From contig CABIKM010000022.1 of assembly GCA_902196205.1 (NCBI GenBank), positions 124,001 to 188,000 of the forward strand: a stretch of DNA of 64,000 nt, read 5' to 3'. Source of the stretch: Candidatus Methylomirabilis lanthanidiphila. Its GTDB lineage: Bacteria; Methylomirabilota; Methylomirabilia; Methylomirabilales; Methylomirabilaceae. Numbering within the stretch: position 1 is the first letter of the stretch; each line of letters begins with the position of its first letter. The notes beneath the pieces are model-generated. The model saw only the letters and a program-made list of their open reading frames with translations. It had not been told where the DNA came from and did not search any database. This document shows positions 27,031-36,210 of this stretch, in pieces. The position numbers and the translations under genes were made by a program.

Positions 27031-27291
27031 TTATGCCGCAGCGTCGCTGGGGAGTTCCCAGCCCGGAAAGACGAGAACACCAGGGTGACACTTGAGCGCG
27101 CGCGCCAAGATTTTGGCGCGTTCAACGCCGAGGCGAACCCGATCATTCTCAATGGCTGAGATAGTCGCTTGTGGGATGCCCGTAAGCCTGGCCAACTGGT
27201 TCTGGCTCAGCCCCTGGAGTTCGCGGACGATGCGCACCGACTCTCCGACTGAAACAGCAATGCGCTTTTTTGCGGGGCAGTATTCTTTCAT
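27031..27291 (-). CDS. XRE-family antitoxin of a RelE-type pair
   Basis: An 86-residue helix-turn-helix protein: VRIVRELQGLSQNQLARLTGIPQATISAIEN is the DNA-binding core, and GVERAKILARALKCHPGVLVFPGWEL the C-terminal part. It starts on the base after the toxin's TAA, with its ribosome site inside the toxin gene, so the two are translated together. With the toxin it should repress the palindrome at 27588-27603. Confidence 0.85.
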   Translation of the reverse strand: MKEYCPAKKRIAVSVGESVRIVRELQGLSQNQLARLTGIPQATISAIENDRVRLGVERAKILARALKCHPGVLVFPGWELPSDAAA

Positions 27292-27573
27292 TTATGGCCT
27301 CCGGTACTCGTGTGCGGCTATCACAGCAACTTGGAATACGAGATCTTTCGGAATCACCCGGTAGATGACTCGCCACTTATCGCTGAGGCGTGAGGACCGA
27401 TAGCCCACCCACCGGCCGGATAGAGCCTCGTCATGGAACCCCTTGATCAGGCGCAACCCGGGCGGACCTGACATGGTGGCGATGTCCTTCCATTTTTCGT
27501 AGCGCTTGAGGATTTCGGTCGGAGCTGAGGCCAGTTGTTTGTCAACCCGCCGGTGCTCCTCGATTCGCCACAT
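27292..27573 (-). CDS. RelE/ParE-superfamily toxin
   Basis: A 93-residue protein. Helical start RRVDKQLASAPTEILKRYEKWKD, then LRLIKGFHDEALSGRWVGYRSSRLSDKWRVIYRV in outline and FQVAVIAAHEYRRP at the end. The order of two helices and a four-stranded sheet, with Arg/Tyr/His near the C-terminus, matches RelE-type mRNA interferases. Toxin before antitoxin is the reversed order typical of hig-like loci. All family features are present, so it is probably active. Confidence 0.85.
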   Translation of the reverse strand: MWRIEEHRRVDKQLASAPTEILKRYEKWKDIATMSGPPGLRLIKGFHDEALSGRWVGYRSSRLSDKWRVIYRVIPKDLVFQVAVIAAHEYRRP

Positions 27574-29881: not shown

Positions 29882-30034
29882 ATGAGTCCCCAGAATCGCG
29901 GCTGGTTCGAGGTGACACAACTCACCACTCCCACCGGCACCCGCGAGGTGCGTTTTCAAAGCGCGGTTGGAGTTCATCTGCGGACCATCCCGTTTCGCGT
30001 TCTCAAGCGACTACCAGTGGAGGCGAACCTGTGA
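29882..30034 (+). pseudogene. C-terminal fragment of an unidentified gene before capA
   Basis: Fifty codons in good coding style (WFEVTQLTTPTGTREVRFQ, then IPFRVLKRLPVEANL) end in TGA overlapping the GTG of the CapA-like gene. The overlap shows it was once the first gene of that operon. The upstream part is cut off by stops. The family is not recognised. Confidence 0.4.
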
Positions 30035-30641
30035 AGCGTGGTTTGCAGACGGCAGTCATCGTTTTGGTGGTGCTGCTCGGCGCTTGCCGTTCCGACTCGG
30101 TGAACGTGGCGGCGTGGCGCGATTGGACGCCAAGCTTCTTTCGTCGCTGATAGCGGAATTGCGCCGCCGACATCCGGGGATTTTCATCATTGCGTTTCCA
30201 CACTGGGGTTGGAACTACGACTGGAAAAGTATCCGGCAGGAACAGGAGGCCAAGAACCTGTTGGCTGCCGGTGTCGATTTGGTGCTGGGGCACAGCGCGC
30301 ACCGGATGCAGGAAGTGGAGCGAGTTGAAGGCCGGTGGGTCGTGTACAGCTTGGGAAATTTTATGTTTGGCTCGCCGGGTCGGTACGCGGAACTTCACTC
30401 GCCGCCATTCAGTTTGGTGGCGATGCTGATGTTCCGAGTCGTCGATCGTCAACTGCAACCGTTCTTGAAGCTTTACCCGATTCTGTCCGACAACCTACAG
30501 ACCGGCTACCGGCCGCGACTGGTGAATGAAACGGAATTTGCTGATGTGGTTCAACTGTTGCGGCAACGAAGTTCATCGCACGATTTGATGCGGACCGGTG
30601 TGGACAATCTGGGGTCGCACCTGAGGCTGGAGTTGCGATGA
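30031..30641 (+). pseudogene. CapA-type poly-gamma-glutamate/capsule protein with a large internal deletion
   Basis: A GTG at 30031 behind GGAGGCG starts a lipoprotein signal (KRGLQTAVIVLVVLLGAC). Near 30119 the frame breaks, and the C-terminal third of a CapA metallophosphatase continues in another frame: LLSSLIAELRRRHPGIFIIAFPHWGWNYDW, split here as IAELRRRHPG and FPHWGWNYDW, then DLVLGHSAHRMQEVE and VVYSLGNFMFGSPG. The N-terminal catalytic part, about 200 residues with the metal-binding Asp/His, is missing, so the gene cannot work. Its stop overlaps the next start (ATGA). Confidence 0.7.
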
Positions 30642-31954
30642 ACCGCCAATTCTCCCTCAGATACCGGTTGCGGAGCTGGTGGTGTATCAAGAGGTACCAG
30701 TGGGAGGCGCGGTTTGTCGTTCGACTGGCGGTGTGGTTGCGTGGCGTGCCGGTCGTGGCCGTGACGGGTACGAACGGTAAAACGACAACGGTCCACCTCA
30801 TTGACCGCTTATTGCGCGCGGCCGGGTACCACGTCGGCAGTTGTACTACCTACGGCGTGTATCACGATGGGATCCGTGTCGCGGGGGGTGACAAGGCCGG
30901 CCACCGGGGCATCTGGCGAGCGTTGCATTGCCGCCGCTTGCAGGTGATCGTCGCGGAAGTCGGTCGCGGCGGCATGCTGCGGTACGGTACGGGATTCTCG
31001 CAATGCCGCGTCGGCGTGGTGACGAATGTCTTGGCCGATCACCTCGGCTTGGACGGTGTGTGGACGGTGGACCAGATGGCGGTCGCGAAGGCTGAGATCA
31101 TTCGGCGCACAGACCCGGCGGGCGCGGTGGTCTTAAACGCCGACGATCCGCGAGTAGCAGCGATGGCGCAACGGATGGTGGCCCAGCCGGTGTGGTTCAC
31201 CGTTGAGGGGCGAGAGCGCGAGTTCGATCGCGGCTGGTTTCTGCGCGACGGCGCGTTGTGGCGAAAAGACGGTACCGGCGAGGAACGCCTGTTGGCTACC
31301 ACCGAGATGCCGATGACCCATGGCGGCCACCAGCGCTACAACATCGCCAATGCCCTCGCTGCCTTGGCCGCCGTCGAGGCGATGGGCGATCGGTTCGCCG
31401 TACCGCGTACCGCGCAATGTGCGGTTTTGCGCGAGTACGAACGCGATCATCGGGTGTACCCACCCGGTCGGTTCATCTTGGCCCGCTTCCGTGGCCATTA
31501 TGTTCTCCTGCTGCACCTCAAGAACCCCGATGCTTACCGGCTGGAGGCGCCGTTTATCCGCCGTGTGCAAGCCGCGCTCGGCTGCCGTTACCTCCTTGGC
31601 GTGGCGACCTCGATTGGCAACCGCCTGGAGGAGTACCACCGCGCGGAGTCTCAGGAGCTGGCCAGCTTGTGCGACGGCGTGTTCCTGCGGCCACCGGTGG
31701 ACAAGTACCTGCGCGGTTTGCCGTCCGACGAGATGCTCCGGCGGTTGTCAGTGGCCCTGAAACCAGGGCAACTGCTTAGCACCGAACCACTGCCTGCCGA
31801 GGAGATGCTCGAACGGGCCCGACAGTTGTTTGGCGACTCGTTCATTCTGGTGTACTGCCGGACGCACGCCGACCCAGCATTCAACTTAGAGACTTTCCTG
31901 TGCGAGGCCGAGGTGTTGCCGCTCCCGGCGGCGGCGTTGGCGGGAGCGGCGTAA
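30638..31954 (+). CDS. Mur-ligase-like protein (PgsB/CapB type)
   Basis: A 438-residue ATP-dependent ligase. The P-loop VTGTNGKTTTVHLIDRLL lies at about residues 42-60, EVGRGGMLRYG and VVTNVLADHLGLDG follow, and NADDPRV and MTHGGHQRYNIANALAALAA are the Mur central-domain motifs. Members of this branch (CapB/PgsB and cyanophycin-synthetase-like) add amino acids to polymer chains. The preceding gene is a broken CapA, so the pair was once a poly-gamma-glutamate or capsule module. Whether this intact partner still has a role is uncertain. Confidence 0.8.
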   Translation: MNRQFSLRYRLRSWWCIKRYQWEARFVVRLAVWLRGVPVVAVTGTNGKTTTVHLIDRLLRAAGYHVGSCTTYGVYHDGIRVAGGDKAGHRGIWRALHCRRLQVIVAEVGRGGMLRYGTGFSQCRVGVVTNVLADHLGLDGVWTVDQMAVAKAEIIRRTDPAGAVVLNADDPRVAAMAQRMVAQPVWFTVEGREREFDRGWFLRDGALWRKDGTGEERLLATTEMPMTHGGHQRYNIANALAALAAVEAMGDRFAVPRTAQCAVLREYERDHRVYPPGRFILARFRGHYVLLLHLKNPDAYRLEAPFIRRVQAALGCRYLLGVATSIGNRLEEYHRAESQELASLCDGVFLRPPVDKYLRGLPSDEMLRRLSVALKPGQLLSTEPLPAEEMLERARQLFGDSFILVYCRTHADPAFNLETFLCEAEVLPLPAAALAGAA

Positions 31955-32022
31955 CATGGCGCGGCGCCGGCTCACTTGCCTACACTCTTGTCACAGGGGA
32001 AAGGGGGGCTAAGATAAAATAC

Positions 32023-32051
32023 TTGACGGCGTGAGAAGCTGATGATACGAA
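32023..32051 (+). promoter_or_regulatory. Sigma-70 promoter of the lasso-type peptide gene
   Basis: TTGACG (32023-32028), exactly 17 bases, then TACGAA (32046-32051). The start codon lies 58 bases downstream. Confidence 0.55.
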
Positions 32052-32108
32052 AATGCTTTAAGTCTTAAAGAGGTGATGGACGAAACTACTTTGAAAAGGA
32101 GGAAATCA

Positions 32109-32240
32109 ATGAAGGAAGTCCAGGAACAGCACGTCTGTGAGACGGACACGAAAAAGCTCTATACGAAGCCGACCCTTACGAAGCACAAGACCCTGCGGGA
32201 CATCACTGCTGGTCCTGCCCCATCCGTTATTGGCGACTGA
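32109..32240 (+). CDS. Lasso-type RiPP leader peptide, possible precursor
   Basis: A 43-residue peptide, ATG 32109 behind AAAAGGAGG. The middle reads KLYTKPTLTKHKTLRDITAG, which carries the Y-x-x-P-x-L...T-x-G signature of lasso-peptide leaders recognised by the RRE protein. If cleavage follows the conserved Thr-x, the core starts with Gly and is GPAPSVIGD, ending at Asp9. Position 9 is one of the allowed ring-closing positions, but then no tail would remain to thread. No B1, B2 or C processing gene lies nearby. It may be an orphan precursor used by enzymes elsewhere, or a leader reused for another role. Confidence 0.65.
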   Translation: MKEVQEQHVCETDTKKLYTKPTLTKHKTLRDITAGPAPSVIGD

Positions 32241-35524: not shown

Positions 35525-35851
35525 TCACGGTGTGATAGCTACGCCATGCCCCAGGATATACGCCGCGAAACTGGCGGGTTCGGGTTGGTGCAGTGAGCGA
35601 GCGGGGAAGAAGTGAAGCTCGATATCATCGCCTGCCTCCTTCTGAACTAGCGCTGCGGTATGCGCACGGGTTGTCACGTCCCACGATTCGATACCCTCCA
35701 GGAAGGCCGCGAGATCGATATCGCTCCATTCATTGGCGCTCCCTTCCACCCGAGAACCAAACAGGTAGGCCGCCGCCACAGGGGCATATCGGGAAAGCAC
35801 CTCCACGGCATACCGAGAGCGGCGTTCGATCACAGGATCGATTGCAGCCAT
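35525..35851 (-). CDS. MNT-domain nucleotidyltransferase (HEPN-MNT module)
   Basis: A 108-residue minimal nucleotidyltransferase: AAAYLFGSRVEGSANEWSDIDLAAFLEG has the GSRxxG and S-DID metal-binding motif, and DIELHFF supplies the third acid. MntA-type proteins neutralise the HEPN toxin by transferring AMP to it. Its start overlaps the end of the HEPN gene by 22 bases, so the two are coupled. Confidence 0.85.
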   Translation of the reverse strand: MAAIDPVIERRSRYAVEVLSRYAPVAAAYLFGSRVEGSANEWSDIDLAAFLEGIESWDVTTRAHTAALVQKEAGDDIELHFFPARSLHQPEPASFAAYILGHGVAITP

Positions 35852-36210
35852 CGCACCAACTCCTCCGTTTTCTCTATAACCTGTCGCGCCTGCTGGACGG
35901 ACACCTGCGATGACATATCCTCAATCTCCTCAGGATAACGACACTGAATGTAATACATCGAAAGTTCCCGCAAGAAATCCGCCTGTGTCTCATTGAGAGG
36001 AACCTGCGCACTCTCGGCGAGACGAACAAGCTGATGTAGTCTTGGAGGAAACGCTTCGGACCGTTTCGCGATCACAGCCTTGAGCAGCTTTTCAACCGCT
36101 TGTTGGCAACAGAACAGGACGTAGAGATAGCGCTTGGCCTCCAACATCGCGCGAGCCGTATCAAGGTCATAGACGGCTCGTTCGGCCCACTTGTGGGGGA
36201 TATCGGCCAT
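35830..36210 (-). CDS. HEPN-domain protein (HEPN-MNT module)
   Basis: A 126-residue all-helical protein: ERAVYDLDTARAMLEAKRYLYVLFCCQQAVEKLLKAVIAKR in outline is the first HEPN helix pair, and PPRLHQLVRLAES the next segment. It belongs to the branch encoded before an MNT nucleotidyltransferase. HEPN toxins are RNases with an R-x4-6-H motif. Here Arg and His lie close together in PPRLHQL, so the catalytic motif is not clearly standard. It is most likely the toxin half of a pair; substrate-binding helper roles are also known for the family. Confidence 0.8.
   Translation of the reverse strand: MADIPHKWAERAVYDLDTARAMLEAKRYLYVLFCCQQAVEKLLKAVIAKRSEAFPPRLHQLVRLAESAQVPLNETQADFLRELSMYYIQCRYPEEIEDMSSQVSVQQARQVIEKTEELVRWLQSIL

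Follow-up and report, generated by a model that had tools for sequence, protein, structure and literature searches.

A cyanophycin synthetase-like Mur ligase gene paired with a short YxxP leader peptide gene may represent a new route to decorated ribosomal peptides

The window analysed here, a stretch of 64,000 nucleotides from Candidatus Methylomirabilis lanthanidiphila, lies on contig C22 of genome G000 (3.05 Mb). On its forward strand, a 43-codon gene (32109–32240) encodes the peptide MKEVQEQHVCETDTKKLYTKPTLTKHKTLRDITAGPAPSVIGD, in which a leader of 34 residues with the Y-x-x-P-x-L motif (32109–32210, +) precedes the core GPAPSVIGD (32211–32237, +), followed by the stop codon (32238–32240). 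The predicted border between leader and core was placed from the Thr at the penultimate leader position. A previous reading of the DNA without database searches (the sequence-only reading) had described this ORF, its motif, the penultimate Thr and a core stopping at Asp9, and all of these were confirmed, as was a strong ribosome site, the Shine–Dalgarno sequence AAGGAGG (32096–32102, +), 6 nt before the ATG. The clear promoter that it had also described was not recovered, since the lone sigma-70-like site in our scan (31988–32015) showed 9/12 matches and no matching −10 element was found for the TTGACG at 32022. This site falls in a spacer of 154 bp (31955–32108, +) that separates the precursor gene from the gene of a stand-alone Mur ligase (30638–31954, +, 438 aa), and the presence of this gene upstream on the same strand contradicts the earlier statement that no processing genes were near. 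The spacer scan found no terminator-like site between the two genes, so read-through from the upstream gene is possible.

Other features of the window were noted in passing. A PGA_cap (capsule synthesis) gene, represented by its C-terminal half only (29967–30641, +; profile positions 166–254 of 255), overlaps the start of the Mur ligase gene and is likely truncated; it weakly matches the model of the lasso Trp-epimerase MslH (20 bits, with a cut-off of 700), a member of the same family as PGA_cap. An HTH_3 regulator and an adjoining small ORF (27031–27291 and 27292–27573, both −) were also present, the latter resembling a RelE/ParE toxin by eye and having no Pfam match at E 0.001, and an MNT-type nucleotidyltransferase (35525–35851, −) and a HEPN gene (35830–36210, −) form a toxin–antitoxin-like arrangement.

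The window peptide has its closest homologues in two congeneric genomes, G034 and G033 (77 and 74 % protein identity, respectively), and both stop at the same residue. When the window gene was compared with its counterpart at locus L032, the leader gave a dN of 0.093 and a dS of 0.41, while the nine-residue core gave a dN of 0.41 and a dS of 0.30. On these values the leader is under purifying selection and the core is drifting, which is the pattern expected of a precursor; Gly35, Pro36, Ser39, Gly42 and Asp43 remained unchanged despite the drift. A chance ORF was rejected because orthologues are kept in two genomes and the leader is under selection. Truncation was likewise discarded: the orthologues finish at the same Asp, the sister precursors are equally short and, instead of the longer conserved C terminus that would have marked the window peptide as cut short, homologues commonly carried short cores. 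Taken together, sequence comparisons indicate that the window gene is a real precursor peptide gene.

The Mur ligase was assigned to the cyanophycin synthetase (CphA) M-domain type from Mur_ligase_M and TIGR02068 profiles, comparison with the PDB, a tree and a structural model. It consists of the M domain only, without N, ATP-grasp or UDP-binding N domains, and its best profile was that of cyanophycin synthetase (230 bits, under that model's full-length cut-off), as compared with 21 bits for PgsB. The closest solved structure was also CphA (E 5e-42). In fold comparisons with VIA-align, its AlphaFold model (mean pLDDT 83, pTM 0.85) matched CphA (7wae) with a Z of 44.9 and an rmsd of 2.5 over 379 residues, while MurC, MurE and FolC all gave about 30 or less (MurC ~30, FolC 27), a closeness to CphA that may be partly built in because the alignment behind the model held CphA-type homologues. 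The P-loop, E107, D134, H135, K151, R278, R329 and R359 were kept in the window ligase, as in 28/28 homologues; a second Mur type, found at loci L035 and L037, is without equivalents of R278 and R329. D134 and H135 appear to correspond to D585 and H586 of CphA, and the double change D585A H586A kills the activity of the CphA M domain, according to excerpts of PMC9262961. The same excerpts describe an M domain for which the acceptor of Arg is the side chain of a newly added C-terminal Asp and which adds one residue per Asp, and in those of PMC9427784 it binds only if the C-terminal Asp is unmodified. In place of the CphA motif GDRRDED, which varies little among homologues, the window ligase has GNRLEEY, suggesting that the amino acid it would add is probably not Arg.

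We then built a leader model of 20 rows and ran it on 95 genomes of the phylum. Matches were obtained in 11 of them, eight within the genus; the other three (G052, G068 and G083) matched weakly, and a YGDLRxLT type was common there. The family shares the leader pattern Y-x-x-P-x-L-x-x-x-x-x-L-R-D-[IV]-T-x. Of the 36 leader segments in the fetched loci, two were set aside, the first because a contig end interrupts it and the second because it lacks the LRD motif, so that 34 cores were scored. Core length was 5–13 residues in 33/34, the remaining core of 21 residues resembling a run-on, so the short core of the window peptide is not a truncation; short cores were thus found family-wide by the family search that the sequence-only reading had proposed as a check. 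The one near-constant core feature was a Ser at position 3, 4 or 5, present in 33/34. The window peptide therefore had to be regarded not as an orphan, as first thought, since the same genome carries five sister precursors on another contig (C26, locus L031), with RRE and B2 protease genes alongside, and on these comparisons it is a member of a genus-wide family of non-lasso modified-peptide (RiPP) precursors.

The L031 sisters adjoin genes for a PqqD/RRE protein, a lasso-type B2 protease, a radical SAM/SPASM protein, an HprK-related kinase and an NTP_transf_5 protein, and most family members are housed in clusters of this kind, with RRE (PqqD), B2, radical SAM, HprK-like kinase and nucleotidyltransferase genes and no lasso cyclase. 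The set of RRE, HprK-like kinase, NTP transferase and ABC exporter, again with no cyclase, was present in both L031 and L037. Across the genus, B2 was detected in 9/15 genomes, seven of these being among the eight leader-bearing genomes. The genome of the window has one PqqD and one B2, adjacent to each other on a contig other than that of the window. Of the lasso machinery that the sequence-only reading had suggested searching for, B1 (RRE) and B2 were thus found, while cyclase C was not found beside B2: none of the six PF00733 matches in the genome was an Asn-synthetase-type cyclase next to its sole B2, the nearest on that contig being 137 kb away (24 bits), and no cyclase was detected among the ten L031 proteins scanned. 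Asn-synthetase domains do occur in 15/15 genus genomes, though not at the C26 cluster, and in G028 and G030 B2 and an Asn-synthase lie close together, where the YxxP ORFs differ and have longer tails. No archaeal-type signal peptidase I was found among the cluster proteins scanned, the B2 protease standing in its place.

Two further features of these clusters were observed. A secreted-looking protein similar to PAP2/vanadium chloroperoxidases is encoded between precursor genes in L031 (7390–8685, by Pfam), with copies recognized by similarity in L040 (4023–5321) and L038 (3039–4271). In five genomes, T2SSE/T2SSF genes (type II secretion/type IV pilus) flank the RiPP cluster (L031, 11605–14747; equivalents in L035, L037, L038 and L041).

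A five-row Mur model was searched against the 95 phylum genomes at E <= 1e-40 and gave eight matches in seven genomes. Seven of the eight formed one clade (support 100/98) from six genomes of the genus, a grouping to be read with caution since its two halves, which meet there, are long-branched. A leader gene was the same-strand neighbour of the Mur gene in 7/7 of this clade (the window, L032, L033, L035, L036, L037 and L132), where the five model rows came from these seven genes and six of the loci had first been fetched via the peptide, while the seventh, in G022, was reached via the ligase. The G022 leader gene had been missed by the first peptide search and was found beside its Mur ligase. 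The pairing spans two Mur subtypes that are 32 % identical. A transposase lies between the two genes in L033 and an opposite-strand SDR-like ORF in L036; in L037 the Mur gene is located between leader and radical SAM genes within the cluster, and in L035 it directly precedes the RRE gene. As for the complete RRE/B2/HprK/NTP_transf_5/radical SAM cluster, the Mur gene is inside it in G025 and at its edge in G021. The remaining match came from G092; its protein is longer and extended at the N terminus, and the 3,017 bases examined there revealed no leader.

Beyond these genomes, a scan of named genomes with the Mur alignment yielded at least 80 loci. A P-loop motif could be placed in 70 of the listed loci; 65 of these resembled CphA in having it 350 residues or more from the start of the frame, and a leader regular expression run over the at least 80 loci gave, among the matches listed, seven odd ones, none judged to be a leader gene. 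Stand-alone Mur ligases were also present among 301 genomes of the phylum of G095, several beside a CphA-length gene, and in the 10 loci examined there none had a neighbour judged to be a real leader gene. Pairing is therefore seen only within one genus among the genomes searched, shallowly so beyond the genus. In five genomes of the latter phylum (G118, G284, G109, G268 and G344), the CphA-M-like Mur ligase gene lies next to and opposite the CphA-length gene, an arrangement that is perhaps a two-gene cyanophycin system.

Defining as paired the leader nearest to a Mur gene, we obtained 10 paired cores: GPAPSVIGD, GPVISRTGD (twice), QQISPSVD, GQPVSLGRF (run-on), QASIDTIE, NGSTDT, QASPDLAQ, VAFSIRGTDATEE and NTSPGTDTE; the clusters of L035 and L037 contain a Mur gene together with further leaders that count as unpaired. 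In tests that were chosen after viewing the cores, that overlap and whose counts are phylogenetically non-independent, an Asp downstream of the Ser was present in 9/10 paired and 3/24 unpaired cores (p 4e-5; 7/8 with near-copies collapsed, p 3e-4), an Asp or Glu at core positions 7–9 in 7/10 and 0/24 (p 2e-5; collapsed 5/8, p 3e-4), and an acidic C terminus in 7/10 and 2/24 (p 7e-4; collapsed 5/8, p 0.005), while a C-terminal Asp gave a weak difference (4/10 and 2/24, p 0.048; collapsed 2/8, p 0.25). The paired precursor without Asp (L036, 9068–9235) is probably a run-on.

We favour over all rivals, with a probability of roughly 45 %, the reading in which the core Asp of a short non-lasso RiPP precursor receives an amino acid from the Mur ligase, because the CphA M domain acts on a C-terminal Asp and the window peptide offers such an end. 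In the proposed sequence of events, the YxxP leader would be bound in trans by the single PqqD-type RRE of the genome, core Ser5 would probably be phosphorylated by the HprK-like kinase, the phospho-Ser core would be decorated further by the NTP_transf_5 enzyme, and the B2 protease would cut after Thr33-Ala34. All four proteins are encoded on the other contig and would act in trans; from the sister clusters, we infer that this applies to Ser phosphorylation and cleavage. On the last core residue, Asp, the Mur ligase would phosphorylate the carboxylate of the side chain (or of the terminus) and attach an amino acid to it, the ribosomal peptide serving as acceptor for a branched, non-ribosomal residue. 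Whether a ribosomal leader peptide replaces poly-Asp as the substrate of a CphA-type Mur ligase, yielding an isopeptide on, or a small ring via, the Asp of a phospho-Ser core and thus a Mur-defined RiPP class, we regard as an even call. Counting against the favoured reading, RRE, B2 and kinase are absent from the window locus, and no B2 was found in G022 (80 % complete). With a probable dedicated enzyme gene adjacent, the decoy or other role considered by the sequence-only reading is not needed.

In the main rival reading, the ligase would instead close a ring by activating the acid at core positions 7–9 for attack by the N-terminal amine freed by B2, giving a tail-less macrolactam. Mur ligases join a carboxylate and an amine, the acid is found at 7–9 in 7/10 paired and in no unpaired cores, and GPAPSVIGD would give a Gly1–Asp9 link. 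This alternative is nevertheless unlikely: three paired cores have no acid at 7–9 (NGSTDT, QASPDLAQ and the L036 run-on; two have Asp5), one paired core of 13 residues has a further acidic end beyond its D9, G022 shows no B2 to free the N terminus, and we know of no Mur ligase that closes a peptide ring. The tail-less macrolactam of the sequence-only reading survives as a rival on one condition, namely that ring closure is the work of the Mur ligase. Slightly more doubtful is that the window peptide is an ordinary linear phosphopeptide-like member and that the Mur ligase is merely co-transcribed, working on a small metabolite or cell-wall peptide. Its substrate cannot be read from sequence, and 24/34 scored members have no Mur neighbour; on the other hand, same-strand pairing holds in 7/7 loci across the two divergent subtypes, survives the transposase insertion in L033, occurs inside the core cluster in L037 and is accompanied by an altered make-up of the paired cores.

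We consider it improbable that the ligase extends the peptide iteratively into a poly-amino-acid tail, with the leader peptide as primer, in the manner of PgsB or folylpolyglutamate synthase. The fold match to FolC, the missing UDP-binding N domain (as in PgsB, FolC and the CphA M domain), the truncated PGA_cap gene just upstream and the acidic ends of 7/10 paired cores are consistent with such a tail, but the PgsB score is far below that of CphA, the locus showed no partner for capsule transport and the excerpted PMC9262961 has the CphA M domain adding a single residue per Asp. That the gene encodes a lasso precursor, possibly degenerate, is very improbable despite its YxxP leader, penultimate Thr, Asp9 and the B1 and B2 of the genome, given that the genome's only cluster has no cyclase beside B2, that sister cores have 5–7 residues with Ser rather than a ring acid conserved, and that the G028 and G030 loci carry other, longer-tailed YxxP ORFs.

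Should the peptide prove to be the substrate of the ligase, the acyl-phosphate chemistry of Mur enzymes would enter the RiPP tailoring tool kit, and a route would be suggested by which a polymer-making enzyme is retargeted to a genetically encoded acceptor; the pairing of leader peptide and CphA-like Mur ligase may offer ribosomal peptides a new kind of decoration. For genome mining, it matters that a YxxP leader with a penultimate Thr is insufficient for a lasso call. Searches of open-licence PMC articles found, among the matches listed, no on-topic paper joining a Mur ligase or cyanophycin synthetase with RiPP, lasso, leader or precursor peptides, and nothing relevant on RiPPs in Methylomirabilis.

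As compared with known systems, the leader does belong to the YxxP (RRE-binding) kind, as the sequence-only reading had proposed, while lasso membership is unsupported because there is no cyclase beside B2, 24/24 unpaired cores are without Asp or Glu at 7–9 and the conserved residue is Ser. In agreement with this, the NCBIfam lasso model NF033528 gave 13 bits (cut-off 33), and Asp9 is the last residue, whereas in lasso peptides an Asp or Glu at core 7–9 is followed by a threading tail. The YxxP leader set resembles that of the linear polyphosphorylated peptides (LPP) of Bacillota, which, in the excerpts of PMC13381572, combine a YxxP leader, a discrete RRE, an HprK-like kinase, an NTP transferase and an ABC exporter with no macrolactam cyclase. 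The kinase acts there on core Ser3, and a Ser near the core start and a variable C terminus are shared with the present family, so that by analogy the Ser at positions 3–5 is suggestive of a phosphorylation site. LPP membership is not claimed, because the leader motif (YxxPxVLxHQxIxFETxxS in the PMC13381572 excerpts, YxKPTLxKHKxLRDITA here) and the leader peptidase (an archaeal-type signal peptidase there, a lasso-type B2 in the cluster proteins scanned here) differ; this family also has a radical SAM enzyme, cores mostly of 5–13 residues and a Mur ligase at some loci. The window ligase shares with the CphA1 M domain, which binds a peptide ending in Asp, its fold, catalytic residues and presumed ATP-dependent ligation, and differs in being stand-alone without N and ATP-grasp domains, in its altered GDRRDED motif and in being paired with a ribosomal precursor. 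Finally, the lasso peptides paeninodin and pseudomycoidin, as described in excerpts of PMC8498205, likewise involve an RRE, B2, an HprK-like kinase, a nucleotidyltransferase and a phosphorylated Ser, but there the Ser is C-terminal and a macrolactam cyclase and a threaded tail are present.
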